25,231 bases of DNA from a virus. The stretch spans positions 1 through 25,231 of the IMG/VR virus record IMGVR_UViG_3300025592_000064; one strand, written 5' to 3'. A program made the translations under genes and the position numbers. The notes beneath the pieces were generated by a model. It was not told the DNA's origin and made no database searches. It saw nothing but the letters and a program-made list of their open reading frames with translations. Of the stretch, positions 7,062 to 23,254 are shown piece by piece (within the stretch, counting starts at the first letter, position 1; each line of letters begins with the position of its first letter).

Positions 7062-7376
7062 ATGCGTAGATCAGCATCAGAAATCATCAATAACCTTGAG
7101 AATAGGGTTGCACGACTTGAATCAAGTTCTAACCCTCGTCAAGCTAAAGATGCTTATGATATTTGGAGAAGGAAAGTAGATCAGTACATCATTAAGGAAA
7201 TGCGGGTCACTTTTGAATACGAAACAAAAGACGGTGAACACTCCGAAGACTATATAAACAGTCTTTGGCAAGATGGAGTTAAGCCATCACGAGCCTCCAA
7301 AAATATCATGCAGAAATTTCAATGGTTAAAGTCAGCGGGTATGCTAAAGCATCATAAATATTATGATGCTATTTGA
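7062..7376 (+). CDS. Tagged small protein 1 (MRRSASEII family)
   Basis: 104 residues. Residues 1-20 (MRRSASEIINNLENRVARLE) are the shared tag found on six proteins of this window: basic start, then an amphipathic helix with Ile9, Leu12, Val16, Leu19 on one face (a/d heptad spacing). The body (residues 30-104) is charged, with helices (DIWRRKVDQYIIKEMRVTFEYETKD...ASKNIMQKFQWLKSAGMLKHHKYYDAI) and is not related to the bodies of the other five. Function unknown. Start is fixed by the RBS GGAG and by conservation of the tag. It lies directly after the endonuclease gene, with its own promoter, so is probably a separate cargo gene rather than part of the mobile element. Confidence 0.8.
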   Translation: MRRSASEIINNLENRVARLESSSNPRQAKDAYDIWRRKVDQYIIKEMRVTFEYETKDGEHSEDYINSLWQDGVKPSRASKNIMQKFQWLKSAGMLKHHKYYDAI

Positions 7377-7402
7377 ATGGTTATTGAAAGGGATCTAGGG
7401 AT

Positions 7403-7454
7403 TTGATGTAGGGGCGAGTACAGTGAGTCGTTGGATGGTTAAGTTTGGGGTGGA
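7403..7454 (+). repeat. Endonuclease 3'-end remnant (copy 2)
   Basis: 50 of 52 bases identical to 6935-6986, but with no endonuclease gene attached. It lies just before the promoter copy at 7463, in the same relation to the promoter as the true endonuclease end is to the one at 7000. Confidence 0.9.
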
Positions 7455-7462
7455 TTGATTTG

Positions 7463-7477
7463 TAGTTTATTTATTAG
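7463..7477 (+). promoter_or_regulatory. Promoter TAGTTTATTTATTAG (copy c)
   Basis: Same motif, 29 bases before the ATG of the barrel protein gene. The leader hairpin and RBS stem of the tagged genes are missing here. Confidence 0.5.
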
Positions 7478-7505
7478 TGTCTATTATCCATAAAGGAGAG
7501 ACACC

Positions 7506-8036
7506 ATGAGACTTACTATCGCTTTACTCTTATCTGTCTTGCTCACCTCTACGATTTCTCACGCTGAAGAGAATAACTGGGAAGTGAGTCTAGGCACAAC
7601 GCAAATGTTCATCGGTGGGTACGAAGAGGGTTCAATACCTGTACCTACGAACTCTGCCACATTCATCTTATCTCGTAAGATGTATGAGAGCTTTGCATTA
7701 TGGGTTGTGTTCAATCTACCTACCTCCTCTAACAAAAGGTTTACAGAGGAAGGTTTACTTGTAGAGTCTCAGACACCACCTAGTCTTATGCTAGGTGCGA
7801 GTTATGAGTTATTGGGCTATGAGATCTCCGACAAGAAATCTTTAGGTCTTGATGTTGGTGCTTCAGTCGGACACACGATTACGCTTAATGGTCAGTTCTT
7901 CCCTGTGGGTGCGTTTCGTTTGAAGTTCGTTAAAGACGAGGACAGCACTATGTATGCAGGGGTGACAACCTCACCATATAATCCAGATGGTGATTTGGTT
8001 TGGGGTTTGATCTATGGCATGGGGTATAGATTTTAA
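7506..8036 (+). CDS. Secreted outer-membrane barrel-like protein
   Basis: 176 residues. Residues 1-20 are a typical Sec signal peptide (MRLTIALLLSVLLTSTISHA, cut after SHA). The rest alternates polar and non-polar residues in strand-length pieces (WEVSLGTTQMFIGGY, SFALWVVFNL, SLMLGASYELLGYEI, SLGLDVGASVGHTI, STMYAGVTTSPY, LVWGLIYGMGYRF) and ends in Phe, the usual C-terminal signal of outer membrane barrels. About eight strands would fit. In a phage, an outer membrane protein made in the infected cell could change the surface, for example to block superinfection (as some prophage-borne porins and lipoproteins do); this role is inferred. RBS AAAGGAGA; own promoter copy. Confidence 0.75.
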   Translation: MRLTIALLLSVLLTSTISHAEENNWEVSLGTTQMFIGGYEEGSIPVPTNSATFILSRKMYESFALWVVFNLPTSSNKRFTEEGLLVESQTPPSLMLGASYELLGYEISDKKSLGLDVGASVGHTITLNGQFFPVGAFRLKFVKDEDSTMYAGVTTSPYNPDGDLVWGLIYGMGYRF

Positions 8037-8043
8037 TGTGAGT

Positions 8044-8077
8044 GCGAGTACAGTGGGTCGTTGGATGGTTAAGTTTG
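8044..8077 (+). repeat. Endonuclease 3'-end remnant (copy 3)
   Basis: 34 bases identical to the endonuclease 3' end (GCGAGTACAGTGGG...), without the gene, again directly before a promoter copy (8086). Shorter than copy 2 on both sides. Confidence 0.9.
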
Positions 8078-8085
8078 AGGTTTTG

Positions 8086-8100
8086 TAGTTTCTTTATAAT
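8086..8100 (+). promoter_or_regulatory. Promoter TAGTTTCTTTATAAT (copy d)
   Basis: Perfect TATAAT (8095-8100), 46 bases before the ATG at 8146. Confidence 0.6.
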
Positions 8101-8145
8101 AGATCTTAAGTGATCTCTTTAACCTTAATCAAATGGAGAACCATT
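8101..8145 (+). promoter_or_regulatory. Conserved 5' leader of tagged gene 2
   Basis: AGATC-TTAAGT-GATCT hairpin (8101-8116), CTTTAACC, and AATGG-AGAA-CCATT (8132-8145) around the GGAG RBS, ending right at the ATG. Confidence 0.55.
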
Positions 8146-8625
8146 ATGAGAAGATCTGCATCAGAAATCATTAATAACCTTGAGACTCGTATCGCAAGAC
8201 TTGAAAGACAAGCATATCACCCTGATGACCCACGATCACAAGAGATGGGTGGTTATAGAGAGCCTGCGGGGGGAGAGTGGCATGAGCCTGAGATTCTTAC
8301 TGGAAAAAAGTTTCTCAGGTGGTTACAAAATGATCGGGAGATCAAATCCCATTTAAATAAGAGCGTGTTTATAGATGTTTCTTCATCTACTATCACCTTT
8401 GACACATCTTGGTGGTCAAAATATACAAGAAATGGTAATACCTTGGATGGGATTCTATACAGCATTTGGGACAATCCTATGTTGGGGCGGGATTGGAAGA
8501 TAAGAGGGAGAAATGTGACTATCAAGGGTTTGTGGGGAGACCTTGTGTACGGGGAGGGTGATATTTATGCACAAGAAACCTTTACCATCAAGAAGAGTCG
8601 TGGTTCTATCGTTTTAAAGGCATAG
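8146..8625 (+). CDS. Tagged protein 2 (MRRSASEII family)
   Basis: 159 residues, starting at the ATG at 8146. A start 36 bases upstream is open but would add 12 residues encoded by the untranslated leader. Tag residues 1-20 (MRRSASEIINNLETRIARLE), then a linker rich in Pro, Gly, Asp and Glu (HPDDPRSQEMGGYREPAGGEWHEPE), then a compact domain of about 110 residues (FLRWLQNDREIKSHLNKSVFIDVSSSTITF...GRNVTIKGLWGDLVYGEGDIYAQETFTIKKSRGSIVLKA) that looks alpha then beta. I do not recognise the domain. The linker between tag and domain is what one would expect if the tag is a separate targeting or processing element. Promoter and leader as for the other tagged genes. Confidence 0.8.
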   Translation: MRRSASEIINNLETRIARLERQAYHPDDPRSQEMGGYREPAGGEWHEPEILTGKKFLRWLQNDREIKSHLNKSVFIDVSSSTITFDTSWWSKYTRNGNTLDGILYSIWDNPMLGRDWKIRGRNVTIKGLWGDLVYGEGDIYAQETFTIKKSRGSIVLKA

Positions 8626-8649
8626 TCTATCTGTGGCCTTAATTAAGTT

Positions 8650-8668
8650 ATCATCTCTGATGATGTTT
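8650..8668 (+). terminator. Possible weak terminator
   Basis: ATCATC-TCT-GATGAT perfect small hairpin followed by GTTTTA, 25 bases after tagged gene 2. Short stem and poor T-run, so uncertain. Confidence 0.25.
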
Positions 8669-8756
8669 TAAACAAAGATGAGAGACAAAAGGTTTACACT
8701 TAGCCACAAGTGGGGAGTTTTTGTTCCTAGTGGAAGATAGATTTGAATAAGTTTAA

Positions 8757-8771
8757 TAGTTTGTTTATATA
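8757..8771 (+). promoter_or_regulatory. Promoter TAGTTTGTTTATATA (copy e)
   Basis: Motif copy 40 bases before the lipoprotein ATG; the leader hairpin is absent. The rest of the 186-base gap before it (8626-8756) shows only the small hairpin at 8650. Confidence 0.5.
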
Positions 8772-8810
8772 CCTTTTCTTGAACACACTTAACAAAGAAG
8801 GATATTCATT

Positions 8811-9176
8811 ATGAGAAACTTACTCACAATCGCACTTATTGCTCTTACCTTTATTGCTTGCGACAAGGATAAAGAAGAAACCACACCTAACGATGGTGGT
8901 ATGGAAGCTGGGGCTACCGCAGGATCAGAGGCAGGATCTGAAGCAGGAACTGAAGCAGGGTCTGATGCAGGAACTGAAGCAGGGACAGAAATGGACATGA
9001 TGGTTATGGGTGGTTCTGAAGAGACTACAGACATGGAAATTACTGAAGGTGGTACTGAGTCTGATATGGGTATGGACGAAGCGGGTATGGAATCTACGGA
9101 CATGGAAGTAGTTGAGGGTGGTTCAGATGAATCTACGGATATGGGATCTGATACCGAAGCTGGAACTGAGGGCTAG
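8811..9176 (+). CDS. Phage-encoded lipoprotein with Ala-Gly-Glu repeats
   Basis: 121 residues. Hydrophobic signal MRNLLTIALIALTFIAC with Cys17 as lipidation site (FIAC, a slightly atypical lipobox) and Asp18 at +2, which in enterobacteria favours inner membrane retention. The mature part is low-complexity and very acidic: AGSEAGSEAGTEAGSDAGTEAGTE (residues ~32-60), then DMxMxxGG and STDMEVVEGG units. No Cys apart from the lipidated one, no folded domain visible. It is likely displayed on the membrane as an extended acidic chain. Repeats of this kind are common in lipoproteins of some deltaproteobacterial predators, a weak hint on the host. Own promoter and AAGGA RBS; terminator 40 bases after. 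Superinfection exclusion is one possible role, unproven. Confidence 0.75.
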   Translation: MRNLLTIALIALTFIACDKDKEETTPNDGGMEAGATAGSEAGSEAGTEAGSDAGTEAGTEMDMMVMGGSEETTDMEITEGGTESDMGMDEAGMESTDMEVVEGGSDESTDMGSDTEAGTEG

Positions 9177-9216
9177 TAGTCTTGCTCGTCTAAATGGTCT
9201 TTAAGATCTTAGAATG

Positions 9217-9248
9217 AACCTCATTTCCCTTTGGGATTTGGGGTTTTT
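9217..9248 (+). terminator. Intrinsic terminator after the lipoprotein gene
   Basis: AACCTCATTTCCC, loop TTT, GGGATTTGGGGTT, then TTT. A 2x2 internal loop interrupts the stem. Outer arms match those of the terminator at 5473. Confidence 0.8.
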
Positions 9249-9255
9249 CCGTTTA

Positions 9256-9270
9256 TAGTTTGTTTATAAG
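9256..9270 (+). promoter_or_regulatory. Promoter TAGTTTGTTTATAAG (copy f)
   Basis: Motif copy 48 bases before the ATG at 9318, directly after the terminator. Confidence 0.55.
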
Positions 9271-9317
9271 TGATCTTAAGTGATCTCATTAACCTTAAAC
9301 AAAATGGAGAAACCATT
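9271..9317 (+). promoter_or_regulatory. Conserved 5' leader of tagged gene 3
   Basis: GATC-TTAAGT-GATC hairpin (9272-9285), CATTAACC, and AATGG-AGAAA-CCATT (9303-9317) around the RBS. Confidence 0.55.
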
Positions 9318-9752
9318 ATGAGAAGATCAGCATCAGAAATTATTAGAGGACTTGAGAATAGGGTTGCACGACTTGAAAGACAATCCTCAACCAACCGTAG
9401 GGCTAGAAAGTACGGGAAAGCGATCACAGACGCTGTTCGGATGCTTAAGAAAGAGGTGGGCGATGCAGATGCGTCTGAGATTGAAGTGGTGGTGGTAGAG
9501 CTAGTCCATTATAAATTTGAGGATCTGCTTAGAGAGATCGAGGACAGAGGTCCTAATGCTGAAGAGTACTATGAAAATGAAGTTGTAAATAAGTACCCAG
9601 CACTGGTCAAAGCAGGTATTCTATCCGCTGAAATATGGATACAACATCCCAAAATAATCCGAGACCGATACAGGTTGAAAAACTTAAAGGAAGTTAATCT
9701 CTTCGCTGAGTGCATTGGGTCAAGAAAATTGGCTGAGGGGCTCAGTTTCTGA
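9318..9752 (+). CDS. Tagged protein 3 (MRRSASEII family)
   Basis: 144 residues from the ATG at 9318; an in-frame start 48 bases upstream would translate the leader and is rejected. Tag MRRSASEIIRGLENRVARLE, then RQSSTNRRARKYGKAI and a mostly helical charged domain (ITDAVRMLKKEVGDADASEIEVVVVELVHYKFEDLLREIEDRGPNAEEYYENEVVNKYPALVKAGILSAEIW...). The segment VNKYPALVKAGIL recalls MQKFQWLKSAGML near the end of tagged protein 1, so these two may share a distant C-terminal motif; too short to be sure. Function unknown. The gene converges on the Rad50-like gene on the other strand, 68 bases away. Confidence 0.8.
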   Translation: MRRSASEIIRGLENRVARLERQSSTNRRARKYGKAITDAVRMLKKEVGDADASEIEVVVVELVHYKFEDLLREIEDRGPNAEEYYENEVVNKYPALVKAGILSAEIWIQHPKIIRDRYRLKNLKEVNLFAECIGSRKLAEGLSF

Positions 9753-9819
9753 TCCCTATTTAATCTTACAAGATGGGGTCTAAGTTAAGGGATAAGATGC
9801 TGTTTGGGGTAGAGTGAGG

Positions 9820-10941
9820 TTAATGGTCGATCCCTTGTTCACATAAAGGACAAGTATCTCCAATCTCGCACCTAATAGTATCAAGCTCCTCTGTGAGCCT
9901 TTCTACCTCTTGTTCGGTGCAAGATATACGACTGAATAGATCAAAGCGTTCAGAAGCGATTCTGAGGTCTTTTTCGACTTGCGAATCTACATTAGGTAAG
10001 TCTACATTAAGTTGTGTGATTTGTAAGATGGTTTGATCTAATTGATTTCTTTTGTGCAAGACCCGCTCAAGTGGTGCAGGGTCTTTCACCTCTACATCTG
10101 GGATAGGTGGGAATGAGGTTAAGCCAACCTCTACGATACCTTCCATGATCCTTAGTCTGTTCTTTTCTATACGAATACGCTCAAGGTCTTTAATCCCCAT
10201 AAAGTCATGTGGGTTCACTTGTGGGAATTTTACATTTTGCAAGGTGGATACGAACTGTGTTTGAAACATAAAGATTTCTCTCTTTTCTTTGATTGCCCCT
10301 AGCTTTTTAACTCTTTCTTCAAGAGTCTTAATCGACCCCTCAAGTGTACTTATATGATTGATCGTTTCCCCTACTTCGTCCAACTCGTTAAACTTAGGTA
10401 AACGATCCCGCTCAGATACTAAATCTTCATGCTTTACTTTAATGCGTTGATTAAGGTTCTTAGTTTCGTTCCTAGAGAGACTTGACGCTTTCTCTAGGGC
10501 TTCTATTGTCTTTACATCAGATAAAGCACTAGAGAGGACACTAGGTGGCATATCAAGCAAGAAGATTTGTTCAAACTGTCGAGCGATCTGAGGCCATACA
10601 GTTTTTCCATCGACATCTACCGAAACAATGTTCAAGTCATCAAGTTCATCGGGAGTTTTTGACCCTACTTTATCTAACTTTTGTCCGTTGATCTCATATT
10701 TATTAACCCCTTTACCCTTTTCCCAAATTACCGAGTTGCCATCATCAAAGTTGATGGAGACTTTTGATGACTTTTCACCTTGCCTTACATGAGAATATCC
10801 CCTTGCATTAGAGAAAGCACCTGCTATGGCTCTTGCACAAGCAGACTTACCTGTATTATTAGCCCCTGTAATAACAGTAAGACCTTTAACTTCAAAGTCA
10901 GCGTGTTTGATAGATTGGTAGTTTTCTATTTTGACTTGCAT
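9820..10941 (-). CDS. Half-length Rad50/gp46-like ATPase ending at its zinc hook
   Basis: 373 residues. Walker A GANNTGKS at 26-33 follows MQVKIENYQSIKHADFEVKGLTVI, the standard start of SbcC/Rad50/gp46 ATPases. A Gln-containing segment (ARQFEQIFLLDMPPSVLSSAL, ~120-140) fits the Q-loop, then a coiled coil (~155-355), then CPLC at 364-367, the Rad50 zinc hook. The protein stops six residues later, so the returning coil, ABC signature and Walker B are all missing; complete homologues would continue for several hundred residues. The 68 bases after the stop hold no continuation. Either the second half is encoded elsewhere, or this is a remnant or a standalone half-protein. Its start region diverges from the gene at 11043. 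Confidence 0.8.
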   Translation of the reverse strand: MQVKIENYQSIKHADFEVKGLTVITGANNTGKSACARAIAGAFSNARGYSHVRQGEKSSKVSINFDDGNSVIWEKGKGVNKYEINGQKLDKVGSKTPDELDDLNIVSVDVDGKTVWPQIARQFEQIFLLDMPPSVLSSALSDVKTIEALEKASSLSRNETKNLNQRIKVKHEDLVSERDRLPKFNELDEVGETINHISTLEGSIKTLEERVKKLGAIKEKREIFMFQTQFVSTLQNVKFPQVNPHDFMGIKDLERIRIEKNRLRIMEGIVEVGLTSFPPIPDVEVKDPAPLERVLHKRNQLDQTILQITQLNVDLPNVDSQVEKDLRIASERFDLFSRISCTEQEVERLTEELDTIRCEIGDTCPLCEQGIDH

Positions 10942-11005
10942 GGTGTCTTGTCTCCCATTCCCTTTATATGAATGATACCGAGTTTAGGTTTTTGTAACCC
11001 CTTAA

Positions 11006-11018
11006 ATATACCCTTATG
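11006..11018 (+). promoter_or_regulatory. ATATACCCTTATG element
   Basis: Closely resembles ATATACCCTATATG at 12030, upstream of the clamp loader. Here CCCTTA is also repeated directly (11000-11005 region and 11011). Possible promoter or operator of the small operon at 11043. Confidence 0.3.
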
Positions 11019-11042
11019 TAACTCTTGAAAGGAGACTAAGAC

Positions 11043-11267
11043 ATGACAGATCAAAAGGCACAACAACTAAGGGATGCATACAATAAGTTCGTTGACCACC
11101 CCGATGGTCATTGGAAAGGTTCTGCCATTGCAGTGGTCAACCAAGCTCAGAGATCAATCGTTCGGGAAGCGATGGACTTTATGGGTTCAATCGTTGACCA
11201 AGAGTTAGAACTGAGTGATGGTAATATTGCTCTTTACAGTAAAGGATATTGGGCACATGGATTTTGA
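11043..11267 (+). CDS. Small protein, unknown
   Basis: 74 residues, soluble, alpha-helical appearance (MTDQKAQQLRDAYNKFVDHPDGHW...AVVNQAQRSIVREAMDFMGSIVDQELELSDG). No Cys, TM or signal peptide. Good RBS (AAAGGAGA) 7 bases before the ATG. The last 11 bases overlap the next gene in another frame, so the two are probably translationally coupled. I do not recognise it. Confidence 0.65.
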   Translation: MTDQKAQQLRDAYNKFVDHPDGHWKGSAIAVVNQAQRSIVREAMDFMGSIVDQELELSDGNIALYSKGYWAHGF

Positions 11268-11487
11268 GGTATATAAACTAACCGATGCTGAACTTGGGGC
11301 AGTAGACTTTTGTAGAGGTCGCTACCTATGGGCTGACATCGTAGCTCAAAACTTAGAGGGTGATACGCTTACCCTAGATAACATGACTCAACATGAGATG
11401 AATGAGGCTATTGAGGTAGAGGGCATTCCTCTCTTAGATGATCGCACTGATCTTTTTCGAGGACTTATCTCTCTTGAGCCTGTGTGA
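11257..11487 (+). CDS. Small acidic protein, unknown
   Basis: 76 residues from the ATG at 11257 (AAAGGA RBS at 11241-11246 region). An earlier ATG at 11215 is in frame but would add 14 residues read inside the previous gene and lacks an RBS. Acidic, with LTDAELGAVDFCRGRYLWADIVAQNLEGDTLTL and a helical end. It overlaps the preceding gene by 11 bases. No known domain seen. Confidence 0.65.
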   Translation: MDFEVYKLTDAELGAVDFCRGRYLWADIVAQNLEGDTLTLDNMTQHEMNEAIEVEGIPLLDDRTDLFRGLISLEPV

Positions 11488-11494
11488 ACTTTAA

Positions 11495-11509
11495 TAGTTT
11501 ATTTATAGA
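11495..11509 (+). promoter_or_regulatory. Promoter TAGTTTATTTATAGA (copy g)
   Basis: Motif copy 47 bases before the ATG at 11556, just after the stop of the preceding small gene. Confidence 0.55.
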
Positions 11510-11555
11510 TTCTCATAGGAGTCTCTTTAACCTTAACTTGAATGGAGAAACCATC
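11508..11555 (+). promoter_or_regulatory. Conserved 5' leader of tagged gene 4
   Basis: Hairpin GATTC-TCATAG-GAGTC (11508-11523): both arms differ from the GATC/GATC version yet still pair (one G-U). Then CTTTAACC and AATGG-AGAAA-CCAT around the RBS. Confidence 0.55.
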
Positions 11556-11930
11556 ATGAGAAGATCAGCTAGTGAAATCATCCGTAACCTTGAGGGTCGT
11601 ATTGCTCGTCTTGAAAAATCGGCTCGTCCGAATGACATAGGTATACATAAAGTAGTCAACAAATTGGCATATATACATCAATTTTCTTCGGGGTCCATGG
11701 TTCTATCTGTGCCTAGTAGAAATGCTGACGAAGTGGTAAGGGCAATCAAGGAGATTGGTGTGGGAGCAGAGAATCCATTTGAGGAAAACGATATCACTTA
11801 TAAGAAAGATAATAAAGGACACATGGTTACATTCACTGTTTCATCACCCGAATGGTTAAGAACACATGATGTGGTTCTAAGCCTAAAACTAGATGGTTTT
11901 TTCCTAGTGTCTCACGATGACTTTAGATGA
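11556..11930 (+). CDS. Tagged protein 4 (MRRSASEII family)
   Basis: 124 residues from the ATG at 11556; a start 72 bases upstream would translate promoter and leader and is rejected. Tag MRRSASEIIRNLEGRIARLE, then KSARPND as linker, then an alpha/beta domain: HKVVNKLAYIHQFSSGSMVLSVPSRNADEVVRAIKEIGV...ITYKKDNKGHMVTFTVSSPEWLRTHDVVLSLKLDGFFLVSHDDFR. The order helix-strand-helix-strand-strand-helix would fit a small ferredoxin-like sandwich, but no catalytic motif is visible. The body is unrelated to the other tagged proteins. Function unknown. Confidence 0.8.
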   Translation: MRRSASEIIRNLEGRIARLEKSARPNDIGIHKVVNKLAYIHQFSSGSMVLSVPSRNADEVVRAIKEIGVGAENPFEENDITYKKDNKGHMVTFTVSSPEWLRTHDVVLSLKLDGFFLVSHDDFR

Positions 11931-12022
11931 GGGGATGTCTGAAACTCCAATTCAGAACCAGGAATCTCTTGTTGGTAGAGGTTATCTGATCTAAGAGTCT
12001 TAAACCTCCTCTAAATAGTATA

Positions 12023-12038
12023 AGGGTACATATACCCT
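12023..12038. promoter_or_regulatory. Palindromic operator-like site before the clamp loader
   Basis: AGGGTA-CATA-TACCCT, a 6-bp dyad 17 bases before the ATG at 12056, overlapping TATAAG and the ATATACCCTATATG string. It may be an operator over the promoter of the replication/transcription operon. Confidence 0.4.
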
Positions 12039-12055
12039 ATATGAGAGGAGAGAAG

Positions 12056-13249: not shown

Positions 13250-13263
13250 AACCATTCTTTTTA
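13227..13263 (+). terminator. Terminator-like hairpin spanning the clamp loader stop
   Basis: TAAAAAGAATGGT (13227-13239) and ACCATTCTTTTTA (13251-13263) are perfect 13-bp arms; the stop TAA lies in the 11-base loop. It ends in TTCTTTTTA. It is placed 14 bases before the NusG-like start, so it may attenuate read-through into that gene. Confidence 0.65.
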
Positions 13264-13276
13264 CTGTGAGTTGTAT

Positions 13277-13795: not shown

Positions 13796-13796
13796 A

Positions 13797-14363: not shown

Positions 14364-14611
14364 CCGATAAGATCTTACCTAAAGACATCGTAAAAAGATG
14401 GGTCGCAGAAGTGATGACTCAAAAGTACGACATCACGATACACCCTCAAGAGTATCCTTTTGGAGAAAAGTTCATACGCAATCTACAACGAGAGGATTGG
14501 GATGTGAGTATAATTGAAGACCATAAAATTGTGATCACTTCTAATGACCCGATCAAGCTGGCACACTTAACAATCAAACTTAGGAATCAAGGATTCCTGA
14601 TAGAGGATTGA
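14360..14611 (+). CDS. Small basic/acidic protein, unknown
   Basis: 83 residues (MTDKILPKDIVKRWVAEVMTQKYDITIHPQEYPFGEKFIRNLQREDWDVSIIEDHKIVITSNDPIKLAHLTIKLRNQGFLIED). Predicted alpha-beta; no Cys, no membrane segment. It overlaps the sigma-like gene by four bases (ATGA), so is made with it and may be an accessory transcription factor. In T4 the late coactivator gp33 is similarly small, but no sequence similarity is claimed. Followed by a promoter motif. Confidence 0.65.
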   Translation: MTDKILPKDIVKRWVAEVMTQKYDITIHPQEYPFGEKFIRNLQREDWDVSIIEDHKIVITSNDPIKLAHLTIKLRNQGFLIED

Positions 14612-14615
14612 TTTG

Positions 14616-14630: not shown

Positions 14631-14668
14631 TGTTAATACTTGTAGATTTAAACTCAAAGGAGAACACA

Positions 14669-17600
14669 ATGGCTGTAAGAAGAAATCGCATTGTAAAACC
14701 GTATAGAGGTAAACTCTATGACATGGTGGTCAAGAACTTTGCTTATGTACCTGTTCTTAATGCAAAAGGACAACAAGTAGAAGAGACCGATAAAGACGGT
14801 GAACCAATAAAAGGCAAGATCGTCAAGATCAGACGCAAAGAGGTGACTGACTCCTTTGAAATATATTACAATATTTGCCTTGTAGACGAATACTTTAAGA
14901 TGCTTTACGAAAAGTGTCTTAAAGACAGCATCACCCCATCTCCTGGGGAAATACTTGAGGTTTCAACCCTTAAAAATGATTTCGCTAAGAGTTGGAGGTA
15001 CTTACTGCAAAAGTACGCTATCAAAGCACCACGAGGTACAAGAGAGCTTGCAACTAAAGTCGAAGCCCGACTCGCTGTGATTGATGGCAACATCAATCAA
15101 GGTCTTACTGCTGTACTTTCAGGTACCGACATCAACATGGTCATAGGGCAACTCAAAGGTGCCGCAGGTAGTTCAGACTTCAAAAGAACAATCGCCTTTT
15201 ATGCAGATTACATCAAACAAGCCTTTAATATGCTTGGTTTTAATGTGGTTACAGAAGTTAAAAGCAATCCTAAGTTTAACATTAGATATGTGCAGTTCTC
15301 TGTTGGTGATGAGATCAGCGATTTAATAGCGAACTCAAGTAAGATGGTCGCAGGTGAGATCGAAAAGGCCGCTAAGTTAAAGAAAATCAGAGATGTGAAG
15401 CTCAAATCTTCTTTAATTGAAGAAGGTTATCATGTCGAGACTAGACCTACCTATGTTGATGGTGGGGTAGCGTATCTCACAGTTGCCTACGATCAGCAAG
15501 CCACTAAGATCCCTAAGCCTCGAAGTAAACCTAAAGAACCTGTTTTCTCTAAAAAAGATAAAGAGGTCATTCTTGCTTTAGAGAGCTTAGTTGAAGAGGA
15601 GAGAGTCTACGACATAAGCACTGACCCCAACGATTTTTTCGTTGCCCCTAAGTGTTCAATCGAAAAGGATGAGAGTGGTAAACCTACTCTTTCTTATGAG
15701 CCTGGTGAAGAAGAGAAGAATAAAAGCATTATTCGGCAGATAAAAGAAGCTCAGATTCGTTCTAAAGAGTTCTCTGTACCTCGATTTAAAGATGGTTTTG
15801 GCAGACTCCCTACTGGTGAGCCAGAAGCGGGGTACGACTCAAGAGGTAGACCAAGATTTAAGTATGTTGTACCTAAATCTCGCCTCAAGTTTTACAACCG
15901 AGCAGTTAGACTGTTTGATAAACTCTTACAGTTCAGAGCAATCTGCGACAATAAAGCCGCTCATAGTAAGGAAGTGTTCAACTACCGACAAGCTATGAAA
16001 CCTCTTATTAAAGGTGTATATAGCACTGATTTCACTGATAATCTTGGCAACACTTACAAACGCTTTAATAACATGGAAGATTTAGCTAAAAAGGTTATTA
16101 ATAAGCGTAAAAAAGAACAGAAGAAGAGGCTAATTCAGCCTGATATTTCTACCGAGATAATCACAGTCGAAAACTACCCCGATTGGGATGGGAAAAAGAT
16201 TGTCTATTCAGATCGTAAAGTTAAGATTGCTTGCTTCAAGTACCCATCGGGGAACACATTCAACCCAGTCCACCACAAAGATCTTTTGCAAGAAGCCTTG
16301 AACAGAATAAATCTAGGCAGAAATCCCGACCTCGACCCAACTCTCAAAGATAAGGTCTTGACTCCTTCATTTAGAGAGATAAAGGGGTCAGAAGGTCTGT
16401 CCAAGACTTTCCAACTTACCACTTTGAAAGATTCTAAGGGTAAAGATAAAGAAATCATCATAGCAGGTCGGTATGCAGGATATGAAATCGACACTATATT
16501 GAACATGGAAGGTCGCTTTATCGAAGGTGGCTATGTCAAAAAAGAGAATGGTCGTACTAAGAAAGTTGAAACAGATCGTATCGCTTTTGATAGTAAAGGA
16601 AATGTGTCCACTCTTGATAAGGTCAAAAAGGGAGACAAATGGGAGTATAAGCAAAGACTCATTGAACCTTACATCACAGTCAACCCAAAGACTGGTGTTC
16701 TTACTCTAGGTATACCAGGTGAAAACGAGAGTAAGGCTGACCGAAACATTATGAAGGATCTTGCTGAGAAAGTGACTAGTATTAGTACACTTAATGACCC
16801 AAAACTCCCCGATGGGCATAAAGGTCGTAATCCATTCTTTACTTTTTCTCCCGAAGACTTTGAACTCATTCGTGAGTCTTTAGGTTCTGTAGCTTTAAGT
16901 GCTTCTGCTTCTAAGTTCATGGACGAGTATTATGCAAAACTTAGAGCTAAACAGAACGCTCTTACTGTTGAGAACACTGAGCGTTTCACTCCCGAAGCTC
17001 TTGGTGGATTCGTTGCAGAGACTCCTCGTGGTCAGTTCAAGTTAAACAACAAACAAAAAGAAGCGGCCGCTTGGCTTGAATCATCTGGTATGCAGGGTGT
17101 AGTAGCTCTTGATACTGGTGTTGGAAAGACTCTTACCTCTCTTGTTGCAATCAAAAAAGCAATCAATGAGGAGATGGAGCAAGGTGGAGATGAACGAAGA
17201 TTTCTTTATGTTTCACCTAAGAGCCTTGTCGGAAACTTGAAGAAAGAGGTTCTTAGGTTCATGGTAGAAGGTGGAGATGACTTTGTTCGTGCAGACGGAG
17301 AGGTTGAAAAGACCCCTAATTGGCAAAAACTCGTGCTTGGTCGCATTGATGAAGTGTCTTATGAGGACTTTGTTGTAGACTTTAGGGCCTCTGAGGGCAT
17401 TGATGATATCCTCTTAGACATGGATAATGGCAAACAGATCATTGCGGATACAAGTCGTCTTGCTCGTGAGAATAAACATCATGGCAAAGAAGCAACCATC
17501 ACCTATGAAGTTAAGTATAAGAATGGTCGAGAGGTTTCAAGAAAAGAAGTTGATTTTCAAATCGGAAACTTGATTGACCCGACTATTGTTCGCACAGCTT

Positions 17601-20600
17601 CTAGTAGAAACGAGGTAAGGACTGTCCAAGAACTCGTTTCTTATCCTGCTCTTTCACCCTCTGAAAAGGATGCAAAGAAGAAAGAACTTGCTAAGTCTCG
17701 TAGGGTGTATAACAAACTCAAGAAGGAAGCTAAGGTTAAATCCTCTCCTGCTTTGAATAAAAAGTACCAAGAGAGATACTATGCTTGCTTCTTTGATGAG
17801 ATCAATGAGATCTTTGAAAAAGGACAAGGAGGAAAAGATAAAAACTACGCAGTGTCTTCTCTTGGACATCCTCGTAAAGTTTTCTTAACTGCTTCAGCAC
17901 TTGATCGTGATCCTGTTGACCTTTATAGGCTCGCTACTCTAGCTAAAGGTAAAGTACCTACTAAAAAGAGTGAGAAAGCCTTTGCAGAGAAATACGGTAA
18001 GGTTCTTGCAGGTCGTATGGTTGCCCTTAACCCAGACCCCAAACTAAGAGAACAGTTCTATAATTGGGTCAAAGAGAACTCTTATTTTGCACCTAAGACA
18101 GACATTGCTTATGACAAGATGGGTGTTAACTATCAAGAGGTTTCTCTACCACAACTTCAGAAACTTAAGTCTCGTACTCTTACTACTCGTATGCCACAAG
18201 CCATACAGGAAAAGTACAAAAAGCAGGCTAAATCCATTTCGGGTGAGCTGAAAGCAATGGTGTCTAAGTATCGTGATCTTAGGCATAAACTTAATGAGTT
18301 AAAGGAAAACTCAGGCGACTTATATGATCGGACAAAGAGTAAGCCATACCAAGATCTCACTAAAGCTACAGCTAAAGTGAAAACAGCTTTAGACCGTCTT
18401 ATTAAGACATCCTCTGAGGGGATGTTTAAGGCAGATGTAGGGTCTAAAATCTTTAGAGACAATAATGAAGAGAAATGCCTCTATTTCAGTTCGAGTAAAA
18501 AACTTGCTGAGTCTCTCATTAAAAAGAACAGTAAGATCCGTAGAGATAAGGTCCATGCTCTTCTTTGGGCTAAAGAAATCATCTTCTATCAAAACGGTAA
18601 AGTTGTTGCTGGGGTGGAAGAAGAAGACAACATGGGCTTTGAAGCTTTCGATGCGAAGTATATCGACTCAGGTATCTACAGCAAGGTGGCATCTGAAGAG
18701 GAAGACACTGAAACCGAGTCTACTTGGGCTATGGACATCTCAGAGAAGTATGTCGCAGAGAACGATAGCCTCGCAACTGCTGTATGTTCTGATAACTACG
18801 CTCGTGGTTTTAACTTCCAAACCTTCACTAAAGTCATCCACCTTGATCGTGGTAAAGGGTTTGATTCTGAACTATTAAAGCAAAGAACTGCTCGTGCTTA
18901 TCGTGGTGGTCAATCTGAACAAGTAGAAGAAATCTACATTGACGCTACCTTTGCACCAGACTCGGAGTCTGAAGGTACTGTCAGCGACAATGCTCGTAGA
19001 CTCAAAGTGGACCTTAAAAACGCTCTCTCTCTTGAGCGTAGGGAGCTTGAAGAGGGTAAGGCTTATGTTGTCTATATTTGGTTCAAAGACCCTTCAGACG
19101 AGTTAGGTGACGAGTGGTTAAAGACAGACGAGTTTGTATTCAATGCCACAGATGAAACTCTTGAAGTCAAGCTCAACCAACTCTTCAACAGCATGGGTTA
19201 TGTTAAGCCTCTTACTGTTGGGGATGAGGGTTATGTTGAAGAAGGGGCTAACGAACCTGTTAAGCGTTTAGTTCTCCTTGAGGGTACAGACATTAAAGAG
19301 AGAGCTACTGTTAAAGATGACTTTGATATGCTATCCATTGATCAGATTAAATCTCTGGTCAATGAAGCAGATCAAGATTTCTTCCAAGACATTATTGTTA
19401 ATGGTTTGAAATCTGACCTCACTAAGCGACTTGATGCTCGTGTTTCTGATACAGGTATTGCTATTAAAACCCCTGCTATGCTTAGATCTGTTCTTAACCC
19501 GACAGAAGAAAATCTATCAAGAGCTGAAAAAGAACTTGAAGAGTATGATGCAAACCCACTCAGCCATATCACTTTCGACCCAAGTCGTTATGATGACGCT
19601 GATATATGGTTGGCTAGCAGATTTAACAGAGATGGTACTAGTCTTACTGAGATGCAGAAGCAACGCATAGACCTAATGGGGGGTCCTGCTGTTGCAGACT
19701 ATATTCTGGGAGACACTCAAGCATCAGCTACGACAGGTACATTAAGACTAACGGAGAACAGATACATCGAGAGTGGTAACATCGATATTTCTTCTACTGT
19801 TATTAATAATAACTATGTTATGGCTAAACCTTGTGCTCCTAGAGGTTTTTCTCCGAGGTTCTTATTCGCTGAGATTGCCACTGCGAAACGCATGGGGATA
19901 AAAGAAATTAAATGTATGGCCGCAGGCAGTCCTGGAAGTGGAAGATATAGTGGTTATGCTGTATGGCCTAAGTATGGGTTTACATTTTCCATCGATCTTA
20001 CGGGTCTACTAGGAAATGTACCATTTAGCTCACCTGACCAAGTGTATGTACAAGCTGTAAAACAGATAATGGGTGAATATCCAGGTACTGTTGATCTTCA
20101 AAAGCTGTTGGTGATCTGTGCTGACATCGTGACTAACAAAGTCAAAGCAAATGATAAAAGAGCTTATGTAGAAGCGATGCGAGTATGGAAAGAAGCTAAG
20201 GCAAATGCTCTCGGTAACCGACCTGTACTCCCTACCAACGAAAAGTGGCAAGTAGGTGATCGTTTCGTGCTTGATAGCGAGTTTGTAAGAAATAGCTATC
20301 CACAGTTGTATAACGAACAGGGGGAGGTTACCGATGTAACTTCCAGTCAAATTAAGGTTCGACTTGATAGAGGGACAACTCAGTCAATAAATAAAGACAC
20401 CGATTGGATCACACAACTTAATCCTCGTCCTGCTGTTGATTTAAGTGCTTCACAGGAAGAGATTGAGGCTTATGACAGAAGATCTGCTGAGTACGAGGCA
20501 AACATATCTAAACCACCACCACCTAAATCAAAGCGATCCGTTGAGTACACTGTTGCGGTAGGTGAGAAACTGTGGGGTTTGTACGGTGGTGGTGGGTCGA

Positions 20601-21244
20601 TGACCTTGCATCTTAAAGACGGATCTATTTCCATGAAGATTGCTAACGCTTATCTTAAGAAAAAAGCACTTGAAGCGAACCTCGATGTAAACGATTTCCT
20701 TAACACCCCATTGGATCTCTTTAATATAGAAGACCCTTGGTGTTGGGAGCAGGAGATTGACAAAGTTAAAGTTAAAGGTCAGCCTCTTGATTGGAAAAAG
20801 GTCATCGCTCAGTACCCAGAAGCGTTTAAGACTGCATGGTATGCAAATAAGGGGCTTCGTGATAGAGTTACTCGTCTTGTAGGTTCTGTTGATGCTTTGG
20901 GTGCTTTCATGAAGAAGTATGACTTGATTGACCCTCAAACTGATTACAGAACTCCCCGTCCAGGTCAAAGATCACTACAAAGTAGGTCTGTTGGTCAAGA
21001 GCGTTCTGATAACAGTCAGTACAGTGCTGAAAATGTGCATCAGAGAGTTAAACTTGGTTCAGAGTTGACCTCTGAACAGGTGTCAGATCGCAAACTTTGG
21101 GAAGACTCTCAAGATCCTTGTTTACTTGCTGTTTGGGAACAGTTAAGACTTGAAAACTACGCAGGGCAAATTGTTGCCGAGTTGATCGAAGGCGAAGAAG
21201 ATCCCGATCTCATTGAAGCTCAAAGAGCAAGAAAGGATAAATAA
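14669..21244 (+). CDS. Giant 2191-residue protein with SNF2-type helicase core
   Basis: Residues 1-780 are a long charged region without a recognised domain. Helicase core: QKEAAAWLESSGMQGVVALDTGVGKTLTSL with Walker A around 815-822; Ia FLYVSPKSLVGNLKKE; motif II FFDEIN (Asp1043, Glu1044); III FLTAS (~1072); IV CLYFSSSKKLAES; V ARGFNFQTFTKVIHLD; VI QRTARAYRGGQ (1405-1415). This is an SF2/SNF2-like translocase, with a ~170-residue insertion between Ia and II. Near 1690-1780 AEIATAKRMGIKEIKCMAAG...GYAVWPKYGF resembles a GNAT-like domain found in phage virion polyproteins. Residues ~1859-1915 look like an SH3/KOW barrel. Very large phage helicases such as P1 DarB are packaged and ejected to protect DNA; that is a possible model, not shown. 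Good RBS (AAAGGAGA). Confidence 0.85.
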   Translation: MAVRRNRIVKPYRGKLYDMVVKNFAYVPVLNAKGQQVEETDKDGEPIKGKIVKIRRKEVTDSFEIYYNICLVDEYFKMLYEKCLKDSITPSPGEILEVSTLKNDFAKSWRYLLQKYAIKAPRGTRELATKVEARLAVIDGNINQGLTAVLSGTDINMVIGQLKGAAGSSDFKRTIAFYADYIKQAFNMLGFNVVTEVKSNPKFNIRYVQFSVGDEISDLIANSSKMVAGEIEKAAKLKKIRDVKLKSSLIEEGYHVETRPTYVDGGVAYLTVAYDQQATKIPKPRSKPKEPVFSKKDKEVILALESLVEEERVYDISTDPNDFFVAPKCSIEKDESGKPTLSYEPGEEEKNKSIIRQIKEAQIRSKEFSVPRFKDGFGRLPTGEPEAGYDSRGRPRFKYVVPKSRLKFYNRAVRLFDKLLQFRAICDNKAAHSKEVFNYRQAMKPLIKGVYSTDFTDNLGNTYKRFNNMEDLAKKVINKRKKEQKKRLIQPDISTEIITVENYPDWDGKKIVYSDRKVKIACFKYPSGNTFNPVHHKDLLQEALNRINLGRNPDLDPTLKDKVLTPSFREIKGSEGLSKTFQLTTLKDSKGKDKEIIIAGRYAGYEIDTILNMEGRFIEGGYVKKENGRTKKVETDRIAFDSKGNVSTLDKVKKGDKWEYKQRLIEPYITVNPKTGVLTLGIPGENESKADRNIMKDLAEKVTSISTLNDPKLPDGHKGRNPFFTFSPEDFELIRESLGSVALSASASKFMDEYYAKLRAKQNALTVENTERFTPEALGGFVAETPRGQFKLNNKQKEAAAWLESSGMQGVVALDTGVGKTLTSLVAIKKAINEEMEQGGDERRFLYVSPKSLVGNLKKEVLRFMVEGGDDFVRADGEVEKTPNWQKLVLGRIDEVSYEDFVVDFRASEGIDDILLDMDNGKQIIADTSRLARENKHHGKEATITYEVKYKNGREVSRKEVDFQIGNLIDPTIVRTASSRNEVRTVQELVSYPALSPSEKDAKKKELAKSRRVYNKLKKEAKVKSSPALNKKYQERYYACFFDEINEIFEKGQGGKDKNYAVSSLGHPRKVFLTASALDRDPVDLYRLATLAKGKVPTKKSEKAFAEKYGKVLAGRMVALNPDPKLREQFYNWVKENSYFAPKTDIAYDKMGVNYQEVSLPQLQKLKSRTLTTRMPQAIQEKYKKQAKSISGELKAMVSKYRDLRHKLNELKENSGDLYDRTKSKPYQDLTKATAKVKTALDRLIKTSSEGMFKADVGSKIFRDNNEEKCLYFSSSKKLAESLIKKNSKIRRDKVHALLWAKEIIFYQNGKVVAGVEEEDNMGFEAFDAKYIDSGIYSKVASEEEDTETESTWAMDISEKYVAENDSLATAVCSDNYARGFNFQTFTKVIHLDRGKGFDSELLKQRTARAYRGGQSEQVEEIYIDATFAPDSESEGTVSDNARRLKVDLKNALSLERRELEEGKAYVVYIWFKDPSDELGDEWLKTDEFVFNATDETLEVKLNQLFNSMGYVKPLTVGDEGYVEEGANEPVKRLVLLEGTDIKERATVKDDFDMLSIDQIKSLVNEADQDFFQDIIVNGLKSDLTKRLDARVSDTGIAIKTPAMLRSVLNPTEENLSRAEKELEEYDANPLSHITFDPSRYDDADIWLASRFNRDGTSLTEMQKQRIDLMGGPAVADYILGDTQASATTGTLRLTENRYIESGNIDISSTVINNNYVMAKPCAPRGFSPRFLFAEIATAKRMGIKEIKCMAAGSPGSGRYSGYAVWPKYGFTFSIDLTGLLGNVPFSSPDQVYVQAVKQIMGEYPGTVDLQKLLVICADIVTNKVKANDKRAYVEAMRVWKEAKANALGNRPVLPTNEKWQVGDRFVLDSEFVRNSYPQLYNEQGEVTDVTSSQIKVRLDRGTTQSINKDTDWITQLNPRPAVDLSASQEEIEAYDRRSAEYEANISKPPPPKSKRSVEYTVAVGEKLWGLYGGGGSMTLHLKDGSISMKIANAYLKKKALEANLDVNDFLNTPLDLFNIEDPWCWEQEIDKVKVKGQPLDWKKVIAQYPEAFKTAWYANKGLRDRVTRLVGSVDALGAFMKKYDLIDPQTDYRTPRPGQRSLQSRSVGQERSDNSQYSAENVHQRVKLGSELTSEQVSDRKLWEDSQDPCLLAVWEQLRLENYAGQIVAELIEGEEDPDLIEAQRARKDK

Positions 21245-21245
21245 T

Positions 21246-21509
21246 ATGGAAGATCTAGCTACAATCGAAGAATGGATTGATTACATCAACCAAATCCCCA
21301 TGATGGAAATGATTAGCCATGCTAAGGTCATCGGATCTGTCTCTTTCGAGGAAAATAGAGGGGATGAAGGGTACGATGACGAGGACATTATGGTCATCTA
21401 TCAAGCACTCGCTAAAAGGTTCTTAGAACTCGAAATGCGTGTCCCAGATATGATGGACAATGCGTGTGTTAGCTTCAGATCCATTGCAACAGGCATCTTC
21501 ACTCTGTAA
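21246..21509 (+). CDS. Small acidic protein, unknown
   Basis: 87 residues from the ATG at 21246, one base after the giant gene's stop and behind AAAGGATAA. A longer form starting at 21213 would overlap the giant gene and has no RBS. Acidic, helical (MEDLATIEEWIDYINQIPMMEMISHAK...DEDIMVIYQALAKRFLELEMRVPDMMDNACVSFRSIATGIFTL). Probably co-translated with the giant protein. No function recognised. Confidence 0.65.
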   Translation: MEDLATIEEWIDYINQIPMMEMISHAKVIGSVSFEENRGDEGYDDEDIMVIYQALAKRFLELEMRVPDMMDNACVSFRSIATGIFTL

Positions 21510-21517
21510 TGATTGAT

Positions 21518-21572
21518 AATCTCCTTGAGGTGGTATAAATAATCATTACGATGCAACCACATCAAGGAGATT
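21518..21572 (+). promoter_or_regulatory. RBS-masking hairpin with late promoter in the loop
   Basis: AATCTCCTTGAGGTGGT (21518-21534) pairs with ACCACATCAAGGAGATT (21556-21572), 16 of 17 positions. The right arm contains the RBS AAGGAG of the gene at 21577. TATAAATA (21534-21541) starts at the arm-loop junction, so a transcript from it would begin about 21547, lack the left arm and leave the RBS open. Read-through transcripts from upstream would be masked. This is the T4 lysozyme (e) and soc gene logic. Confidence 0.7.
21534..21541 (+). promoter_or_regulatory. T4-type late promoter core TATAAATA
   Basis: Exact match, 35 bases before the ATG at 21577, placed within the masking hairpin described for 21518-21572. 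Confidence 0.6.
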
Positions 21573-21576
21573 ACCT

Positions 21577-21774
21577 ATGAACGAGTCCGTCTATCAAGCT
21601 CTGAAAATGGCTGAAGAGTATCACTCTCGCAAATATGCCTCAAACCAAGAGCAAGCATACCCTACGATTACCGACATCTTGGCAACAGCAAGAGATATCT
21701 TTGAGTTCATCACTACTCTAAGTGAGGAGGATCTCAATGAAGAGTTTCCATTGGAGGTCGATGATATAGTGTAG
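21577..21774 (+). CDS. Small acidic protein, probably late-expressed
   Basis: 65 residues (MNESVYQALKMAEEYHSRKYASNQEQAYPTITDILATARDIFEFITTLSEEDLNEEFPLEVDDIV), soluble, helical, acidic C-terminus. Its RBS AAGGAG is 7 bases before the ATG and sits within a 17-bp hairpin whose loop holds a TATAAATA promoter, so it is predicted to be made only from late transcripts. No homology recognised. Confidence 0.65.
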   Translation: MNESVYQALKMAEEYHSRKYASNQEQAYPTITDILATARDIFEFITTLSEEDLNEEFPLEVDDIV

Positions 21775-21814
21775 TCTTTTTATTACTACCCCTTACTAAT
21801 AGAGGGTATTGATA

Positions 21815-22150
21815 ATGAACAAGTCGTACACACAGAAGCAAGGTGAGATTAGGGTTTGCTTAGAAGCAAACTTCAAAGGTTTATCCTACCCTAAGTACAT
21901 CTTTACTGTCCTGTCTGAGTGTGGCTTCTCATACGATAGAAATCATGACGGTATTGTGTTTGTTCACAATCAAGATACAAATCTAACTATCTTGATTACT
22001 TTAGACCGAAGACAAAAGTGGCATCACCTCATAGCGTATAAACACTCTAAATGGACGCTAACCTATGAGGGTGATGTAAAATATCATGTCTTTGGGAATG
22101 ATGTATTAAAGACAATACGCAGAGCTTATCTGCACTGGTATGGTCTTTAG
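21815..22150 (+). CDS. Small protein, unknown
   Basis: 111 residues from the ATG at 21815 with RBS AGAGGG at 8 bases; a TTG at 21809 is also in frame but too close to that RBS. Sequence MNKSYTQKQGEIRVCLEANFKGLSYPKYIFTVLSECGFSYDRNHDGIVFVHNQDTNLTILITLDRRQKWHHLIAYKHSKWTLTYEGDVKYHVFGNDVLKTIRRAYLHWYGL shows alternating helix and strand, ending in a basic aromatic helix (LKTIRRAYLHWYG). The HicA-like feel (small basic alpha-beta protein) is not backed by the diagnostic motif. Converges with the tagged gene on the other strand. Confidence 0.6.
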   Translation: MNKSYTQKQGEIRVCLEANFKGLSYPKYIFTVLSECGFSYDRNHDGIVFVHNQDTNLTILITLDRRQKWHHLIAYKHSKWTLTYEGDVKYHVFGNDVLKTIRRAYLHWYGL

Positions 22151-22168
22151 AACTTATGCTAAATCTAA

Positions 22169-22194
22169 TGACTTCTGATTACTTGTTGAAGTCA
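22169..22194. terminator. Hairpin between convergent genes
   Basis: TGACTTC (22169-22175), 12-base loop, GAAGTCA (22188-22194), perfect 7-bp arms. It spans the stop of tagged gene 5 and could act on both strands, but there is no T-run. Confidence 0.3.
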
Positions 22195-22568
22195 GTGCGA
22201 ACACTACGAGGAATTAAAAGTACTTTGCGAAGAAGCAACTCAAGCTGACGAACTTCACCCCTACCTTCTCCTTCTACACAAAACAGCTCAAGCTCTGTTA
22301 GCCCATTAGAAGCAGTGAAACCAATGAAGTGCTTATAGTCATACTTTATCTCCCAATCGCCCTCTTCTGCAATTAAGATTTTATTAGACCAACTTTCGAT
22401 GTAACTAGTGATGTCCTTAAAGTCTCCTCGCTTACGAACATAATAATCACCCTCTGAACCTTCGTGGATGTGACCCTCAAGCTCAAAAACAAGAGAGGAA
22501 GATTGTTTCTCAAGACGAGCGATTCTTAGCTCAAGTTCATTAATTATTTCTGATGCTGATCTTTTCAT
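22179..22568 (-). CDS. Tagged protein 5 (MKRSASEII variant)
   Basis: 129 residues. Tag MKRSASEIINELELRIARLE, then KQSSSL. The body (VFELEGHIHEGSEGDYYVRKRGDFKDITSYIESWSNKILIAEEGDWEIKYDYKHFIGFTASNGLTELELFCVEGEGRGEVRQLELLLRKVLLIPRSVRTDFNK) looks alpha-beta, with strands ended by a long helix; no motif recognised. The start is two bases after the stop of tagged gene 6, and the preceding bases GGTTA-AAG-TAACC form a small dyad but no RBS, so translation probably depends on coupling. It is the only tagged gene without its own promoter module. Confidence 0.8.
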   Translation of the reverse strand: MKRSASEIINELELRIARLEKQSSSLVFELEGHIHEGSEGDYYVRKRGDFKDITSYIESWSNKILIAEEGDWEIKYDYKHFIGFTASNGLTELELFCVEGEGRGEVRQLELLLRKVLLIPRSVRTDFNK

Positions 22569-22570
22569 GG

Positions 22571-23254
22571 TTACTTTAACCGTTCTGCTTCTAGGTTGTG
22601 ATATTGAATAGCCTCTTCAAGAGCGTAAGCGACCCTAGACATTGAACCACTACTCGTTCTGAGCTTAGATTGTGAACCTCTACCCTCTAAGATTGGCTCT
22701 AAAATGTCAGATAACTTATTATAACCCACCGCTAAAACATAAGTAATGATAGAGAAAATAACAGTAACACTCGCATATAAAAGCACACCACTCAGCAGGG
22801 GAGTCACTACAAAATAAATTTGTTGCAGTATCGCCACCAAAACTAATATCGCAGGAACTCCCTGAGTAAACTTTCTCAAAGCAACTTCAGAAGGGGACTG
22901 ATCTCTAGCTAGTTTAAGTTCGGCAGTCGAAACTAGCATATCTAAAGCCAACCCAATACGACCTTTCAAAGTCCTCTCCGTTTTCATGATATGATCTTCT
23001 AAGATTTGATACTCAGGATCATAATCGTAAATATACACTAGTTGCTTTGCAAGAGTGCTCGCCCCCTTCATGCTTCTAGTATTAGATACCTTTTTGAGTA
23101 AAGCAATAATCTCTCTCATGTAAGGTATCTTATCAAATAACTTTACGAGATTTCTCTTAACTGAATCTAGGGAGTCACCCAAAAAAGCTTCTCTTTCAAG
23201 ATGGGCGATTCTTATCTCAAGTTCATTAATGATTTCTGATGCTCTTCTTCTCAT
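22571..23254 (-). CDS. Tagged protein 6, with two membrane segments
   Basis: 227 residues. Tag MRRRASEIINELEIRIAHLE (Ser4 replaced by Arg, Arg18 by His), then REAFLG. Residues ~30-130 are charged helices (SVKRNLVKLFDKIPYMREIIALLKKVS...). Residues ~132-152 (GVPAILVLVAILQQIYFVVTP) and ~155-177 (SGVLLYASVTVIFSIITYVLAVG) form two transmembrane segments with a short turn, so N- and C-termini lie on the same side. The C-terminal tail (~45 residues) is charged. Hairpin membrane proteins of this kind can act as pores or as anchors; no holin or pore motif is visible. It carries the same promoter and a divergent form of the leader hairpin. RBS GGAG. Confidence 0.8.
   Translation of the reverse strand: MRRRASEIINELEIRIAHLEREAFLGDSLDSVKRNLVKLFDKIPYMREIIALLKKVSNTRSMKGASTLAKQLVYIYDYDPEYQILEDHIMKTERTLKGRIGLALDMLVSTAELKLARDQSPSEVALRKFTQGVPAILVLVAILQQIYFVVTPLLSGVLLYASVTVIFSIITYVLAVGYNKLSDILEPILEGRGSQSKLRTSSGSMSRVAYALEEAIQYHNLEAERLK

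Follow-up and report, generated by a model that had tools for sequence, protein, structure and literature searches.

Recurrence of one N-terminal peptide

Why should a virus place one and the same peptide at the start of several proteins that otherwise have nothing in common? This question is raised by the viral contig IMGVR_UViG_3300025592_000064, whose complete 25,231 bases are called the window here. A previous sequence-only reading had pointed out six genes with a common N-terminal peptide of 20 residues, which we call the RRSASE tag. All six lie at the positions and on the strands that it gave and its residue pattern holds in each of them; a profile search found no seventh copy in the window. 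The comparisons presented below lend good support to the view that the tag serves as a modular address on unrelated proteins, and we consider it probable that this address leads into the capsid. The six genes are:

7062..7373, plus strand: tagged protein 1, 104 residues; tag 7062-7121; nearest [KR]xA junction RQA at residues 26-28
8146..8622, plus strand: tagged protein 2, 159 residues; tag 8146-8205; junction LE-RQA-Y
9318..9749, plus strand: tagged protein 3, 144 residues; tag 9318-9377; junction LE-RQS-S
11556..11927, plus strand: tagged protein 4, 124 residues; tag 11556-11615; junction LE-KSA-R
22182..22568, minus strand: tagged protein 5, 129 residues; tag 22509-22568; junction LE-KQS-S
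22574..23254, minus strand: tagged protein 6, 227 residues; tag 23195-23254; junction LE-REA-F

The search of viral sequence that the sequence-only reading had suggested was carried out, and the exact degenerate pattern gave 81 matching stretches in viral contigs. No match to the pattern was obtained in 84,980 GTDB genomes, and a direct tag search of the phage collection returned weak chance matches only. By profile search 33 tags were found in the 375-kb contig G001, and three further contigs of 107, 226 and 275 kb carry 15, 14 and 12 tags, respectively. Comparison of the N-terminal 24-mers of G001 yielded 318 pairs above threshold versus none in shuffled controls, which together with the 33 tags found by profile excludes chance as the source of the common peptide. 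No comparable cluster of common N-termini was detected in Tunturi_5 or in phage G (the latter analyzed to base 400,000).

Over 100 distinct N-termini the consensus reads MRR[ST]ASE[IV]I[RN][ND]LExR[IV]ARLE[RK]Q[AS], with A5, L12, E13, R15, L19 and E20 invariant, it being understood that the search pattern itself demanded R/K2, R/K3, A5, E13, R15, L19 and E20. The substitution analysis of these 100 tags gave a proportion of synonymous differences (pS) of 0.58, a proportion of nonsynonymous differences (pN) of 0.19 and a ratio of the two substitution rates (dN/dS) of about 0.20. Since the synonymous sites have diverged at this low ratio, it is the peptide rather than the DNA that is under conservation. 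The codon of Ser6 alternates between TCN and AGY. AlphaFold predicts a weak helix for residues 5-22, and the tag is not strictly N-terminal, in-frame internal copies being present in relatives.

A further short motif at the N-terminus, MK[PS]Y[QE]RVA[SN][RK]Y, occurs on several proteins of the RRSASE lineage (L091:15201-16274, L104:14620-15156, L112:1882-2412 and L120:15309-15881), and a similar RVASKYMK is found inside the protein encoded at 18-719 of the window.

Unrelated proteins behind the tag

The protein bodies following the tag had been described as unrelated, and this is borne out. Ninety-nine distinct tagged proteins fall into 70 body groups without detectable similarity between groups (E<1e-3), the largest group holds six of the 99, and the six proteins of the window belong to six separate groups. 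We looked in particular for homology of the bodies, which would have meant a plain paralogous family, and it was not what these groups display. Searches of the bodies against Pfam, PHROGs and PADLOC returned almost nothing, and the defence library gave no convincing match. AlphaFold models of two bodies, computed with no alignment, had mean predicted local distance difference test (pLDDT) values of 36 and 52 and were too poor for a fold search.

Bodies also occur without the tag. Homologues of the L073:2560 body in LR745208 and Tunturi_5 are untagged and start at their own methionine, and another body family is untagged in two related contigs. Moreover, the tagged genes change between close relatives. 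The window, G001 and G003 are collinear in this part, the major capsid protein (MCP), dnaX, NusG-like, sigma-like and AAA genes being 86-99% identical. At the same slots (MCP to 7506, 7506 to AAA, and AAA to dnaX) the tagged genes differ: a protein of 104 residues in the window is opposed to one of 135 residues in G003, proteins of 159 and 144 residues to one of 111 residues in G001, and a protein of 124 residues to one of 159 residues in G003. All occupants of these slots belong to different body groups.

A second tag in the sister lineage

An unguided comparison of N-termini in LR745208 (485 kb), whose MCP is 89% identical to that of the window, uncovered a second shared peptide, M(T)TLRSKLIRLAHENPALRPHLLPLLKEA. 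This LR tag can be written as LRSKLIRLAHENPxLRxxLLPLLKEA. LR745208 contains 11 copies, one of them between the scaffold-like gene and the decoration/MCP genes, and no RRSASE tag by profile search. Three further genomes with 91% MCP identity have 11, 7 and 15 LR copies and no RRSASE tag. Within the RRSASE lineage, LR matches are absent from G003, with one weak match in G001 and four weak ones in G002. The LR pattern likewise had no match in GTDB genomes.

Two kinds of bodies are found under both tags, matching each other at E 1e-10 to 1e-14. A WGR-type body bears the RRSASE tag in G001 and G003 and the LR tag in G019, and the L107:10231 body, RRSASE-tagged in G001, has LR-tagged homologues in G018, G019 and G020. 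Thus the two tags look interchangeable as judged from the sequences. No other observation speaks as strongly for the tag being a functional address as does this placing of two unrelated peptides at one site of homologous bodies. Taken with the 70 body groups, the untagged homologues and the exchanges at the slots, this favours the modular addressing of unrelated proteins which the sequence-only reading had put forward.

Proteins of the LR lineage share a third module of about 47 residues, LDNxAxLFQxNHxxLGIxxKVAMDFAxRCDxLSDxIEK, which is found in L088:13173-13748 and 15210-15872 (LR745208) as well as in L219, L217 and L226; in LR745208 it ends with KKAG or KTAS. In G020 an open frame of 1,243 residues (L210:4169-7897) contains three LR tags, two of them after GKKAD.

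A junction motif and the head proteins

The end of the tag was then considered as a possible processing site. In RRSASE tags residue 21 is K or R in 75% and residue 23 is A or S in 78%, and 29 of 41 LR tags are followed by a K/R-A junction. Of eight strict cases of LR tags lying inside or at the C-terminus of a protein, a small number, six show [KR][KQER]A in the 10 residues before the tag (background 3%, P about 2e-8). The preceding sequences are mostly KKA, KQA and KKG, namely GKQAS, PKKAT, GKKAD, SKKAG and SKKGS. With junctions after N-terminal tags and before internal or C-terminal ones, the junction tends to separate tag from body, on whichever side the body lies. Two fusions are also instructive: in L024:6017-7315, a fusion of three bodies, the outer two tags are full length and the middle one is reduced to RIARLEKQA, and in a second fusion in G001 only VARLERQA is left of the tag. 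We also observe, without taking it as a test, that the R-[ST]-A-S at the start of the RRSASE tag itself fits a [KR]-x-[AS]-type motif.

The window contains a head module made up of protease (723), scaffold-like (2205), decoration-like (3925) and major capsid (4535) genes. Three of its products matter here:

723..2165, plus strand: head maturation protease (phrog_18299, E 2.4e-14)
2205..3779, plus strand: acidic, scaffold-like protein; of its five [KR]xA[SGA] sites, four recur in G001 and G003
4535..5410, plus strand: major capsid protein (phrog_2522), with identities of 99% to G001 and G003 and 89-91% to the lineage with the second tag

Tunturi_5, a phage available as an isolate, has a head maturation protease, gp331, that matches the window protease with 38% identity across about 240 residues. 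In the head and internal proteins of this phage we count 54 matches to [KR]-x-A-[SGA], its middle residue being restricted, where 13.8 are expected; the corresponding figures are 14 versus 9.0 for tail and 18 versus 12.7 for non-virion proteins. The annotated DNA ejection protein gp328 leads (11 versus about 1), and gp348, the DarB-like gp350 and the ADP-ribosyltransferase gp205 are also rich in the motif. When all residue pairs were scanned in the Tunturi_5 head proteins, K-x-A came out on top at spacing two (142 versus 83, P 3e-9); in the tail and non-virion classes this pair stays flat. Five to seven [KR]-x-A-[SGA] sites are present in each scaffold-like protein from LR745208, G001, G003 and the window, with about one expected where this was computed.

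The cleavage site of the T4 gp21 type is L/I-x-E. In the residue-pair scan of the Tunturi_5 head proteins neither A-x-E nor [IL]-x-E was enriched, which disfavours a T4- or phiKZ-type cut after RLE or ASE within the tag. The candidate cleavage motif is likely to be other than the T4-type L/I-x-E, as far as these sequences tell.

A promoter-like element common to tagged and capsid genes

A promoter-like element, WRTAGTTTATTTATA, precedes 79 of the 100 tagged genes at a median distance of 62 nucleotides from the ATG, with scores mostly between 16 and 26. Five of the six tagged genes of the window have the element together with a partly conserved leader. The sixth, 22568, is the second gene after 23254 in an apparent operon and has no element of its own. 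The elements concerned are:

6998..7012, plus strand: GATAGTTTATTTATA, 64 nucleotides upstream of tagged gene 7062
8084..8098, plus strand: TGTAGTTTCTTTATA, upstream of tagged gene 8146
9254..9268, plus strand: TATAGTTTGTTTATA, upstream of tagged gene 9318
11493..11507, plus strand: AATAGTTTATTTATA, upstream of tagged gene 11556
23303..23317, minus strand: GATAGTTTATTTATA, upstream of the tagged operon 23254/22568
3799..3813, plus strand: AATAGTTTATTTATT, score 23.4, upstream of 3925, the gene directly before the major capsid gene

Apart from the decoration/MCP operon, the element stands in front of 7506, 8811 and 14669 and, in weaker form, of 21815. In the window it is not found before the dnaX, NusG-like, sigma-like, AAA, dNK or Sir2 genes, and in G001 and G003 no orthologue of a non-virion gene of Tunturi_5 had an element score above 6. 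Because the capsid operon has the same element, we infer that the tagged genes are expressed late.

What the tag may do

We regard it as probable that the peptide is a capsid-targeting propeptide, by which cargo is loaded into the prohead, freed of the tag by the head protease and injected. The N-terminal amphipathic helix MRR[ST]ASE[IV]I..LE.R[IV]ARLE would bring tens of unrelated small cargos into the prohead, with the scaffold core as its probable binding partner. Cuts at junctions of the K-x-A type would then be made by the head maturation protease (723..2165), and the cargo would remain in the head and enter the cell with the DNA. A short N-terminal peptide on nonhomologous proteins and a gene for a head maturation protease in the same genome, as capsid targeting demands, are both present. 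Four indirect observations favour the T4-like capsid targeting considered in the sequence-only reading: tagged genes share a promoter-like element with the capsid operon, a K-x-A-type junction closes the tag, internal and C-terminal copies have such junctions before them, and K-x-A is enriched in head proteins of Tunturi_5. The T4-type L/I-x-E cleavage motif, unenriched as it is, did not hold up.

Several points weigh against this picture. About a quarter of the RRSASE tags have no clean [KR]-x-[AS] at residues 21-23, an upstream [KR]-x-A is missing in two of the eight strict cases of internal LR tags, and full-length internal RRSASE copies are not consistently preceded by K-x-A. The junction motif had been noticed before it was tested, for which reason the scan of all pairs was run, and membership of the Tunturi_5 head class was decided in part by judging annotations and neighbourhood, the result being unchanged in a strict subset. 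Finally, a Pfam family was clear in one of 71 scanned bodies (WGR), and there is no proven injected effector among the cargo.

The tag might instead remain uncut and serve for docking or localization outside the capsid, its helix pairing with a phage-made partner in a replication or transcription factory, a nucleus-like compartment or a membrane. The peptide does form a two-heptad coiled-coil-like helix, docking alone would account for modularity and N-terminal position, and one cargo (22574-23254) has hydrophobic, membrane-like stretches as judged by eye. We nevertheless hold this to be unlikely, as it does not account for why junctions of the K-x-A type follow both tags and precede internal and C-terminal LR copies, or why scaffold and head proteins contain this motif as well. 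A weak further argument is that no tubulin (PhuZ-type, PF00091) was detected in G001-G003, G018, G019 and LR745208, several of these records being possibly fragments and a shell protein not having been searched for; phage G and 13 cellular genomes, used as controls, each gave a match.

That promoter, leader and the first 20 codons form a mobile expression cassette, with a peptide devoid of protein function, would fit the conservation of element and leader along with the tag and the repeats of 45-56 nucleotides which flank genes at 6935-8088. It is very improbable given a peptide retained despite strong synonymous divergence (dN/dS 0.20, with Ser6 switching between TCN and AGY), the 21 of 100 tags lacking the promoter-like element, the in-frame internal and C-terminal copies, and the different tag in its place on homologous bodies. 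Still less probable is descent of all tagged proteins from one ancestor with bodies drifted past recognition: some bodies are indeed related across genomes (at most six of 99), yet the 70 groups with their differing lengths and a recognizable WGR domain in one, the body family without tag in two other phages, and the homologous bodies bearing two unrelated tags all speak against it.

Returning to capsid targeting, we lean towards a wider view in which this clade of huge phages has a programmable head-loading code. An excisable helix with K-x-A sites on its flanks could be joined to nearly any protein, whether in front, within or behind; each genome would address 10-33 or more injected effectors in this way, and sister lineages with near-identical capsids would have exchanged the whole code for an unrelated one while keeping some cargo. 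The natural tag swap together with the C-terminal and internal copies would, if true, make a compact protein-loading code. The cargo accompanying the DNA of huge phages is largely unknown and most accessory genes have no recognized family; if the tag is a capsid address, injected effectors could be listed from sequence alone, dozens of orphan proteins included.

Relation to known systems

In T4 the internal proteins and Alt carry an N-terminal propeptide of 10-20 residues which is taken off by the head protease (PMC5694885), IPI being an example of cargo injected alongside the DNA (PMC9958956). The RRSASE tag, with its 20 residues, resembles this capsid-targeting sequence (CTS) in being a short N-terminal peptide on several proteins. 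It differs in that L/I-x-E and A-x-E are not the enriched motif, so that we see an analogue and not a member. T4 has a handful of cargos, here there are up to 33 per genome, and neither internal, C-terminal and polyprotein copies nor two lineage-specific tags are described for T4 in the cited literature.

The N-terminal 30 residues of P1 DarB, an antirestriction cargo, are enough to direct a reporter into the head, and the Dar proteins have no consensus N-terminus (PMC9024508), unlike the single tag common to tens of proteins here. SPN3US and phiKZ have head-internal proteins whose propeptides, several of them longer than 100 residues, are removed by the phage protease; in SPN3US it cuts after A-x-E, and gp53 and gp54 share an identical N-terminus of 15 residues (PMC5694885, PMC10052503). 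Those two are paralogues, whereas the bodies tagged here are unrelated. Phage polyvalent proteins, conflict proteins of several domains, are thought to be carried in the virion and to undergo processing and injection (Iyer et al. 2017; PMC5512222). Here, by contrast, most of the cargo takes the form of numerous small proteins that each have their own tag; in some cases bodies are fused and tags persist between them. The tag thus appears to work like a CTS but to differ in candidate cleavage motif, number of cargos, positions and wholesale exchange between sister lineages. We found no published description of it in open-access full text.

Other features of the window

Acidic repeats of five residues (IEADD/LEAHE) occur in the scaffold-like protein (2205..3779), which near residue 215 also has a motif resembling an EF hand. 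Downstream of the head module follow genes for a clamp loader, a NusG-like protein, a sigma-like factor and a helicase-like protein of 2,191 residues (14669-21244) with SNF2/DEAD helicase motifs at residues about 790-1414. The gene of the last shares its promoter-like element with the capsid operon; the protein is about 73-81% identical in relatives and had no match among 50,697 phage records. A comparison with DarB gave no support for a relationship.

On the minus strand a Sir2-type gene (23973-25156) adjoins an untagged gene with a WGR domain; G001 and G003 encode another WGR protein with an internal tag after KKGT or KKGS. Lastly, the final 45-56 nucleotides (6935-6990) of a LAGLIDADG endonuclease gene (6079-6990) are repeated downstream at 7403-7458 and 8033-8077 with 95% and 91% identity, each copy lying just 5′ of a promoter-like element. 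In G001 and G003 this sequence is present in a single copy, and the repeats at 6935-8088 look like a recombination footprint around inserted genes.

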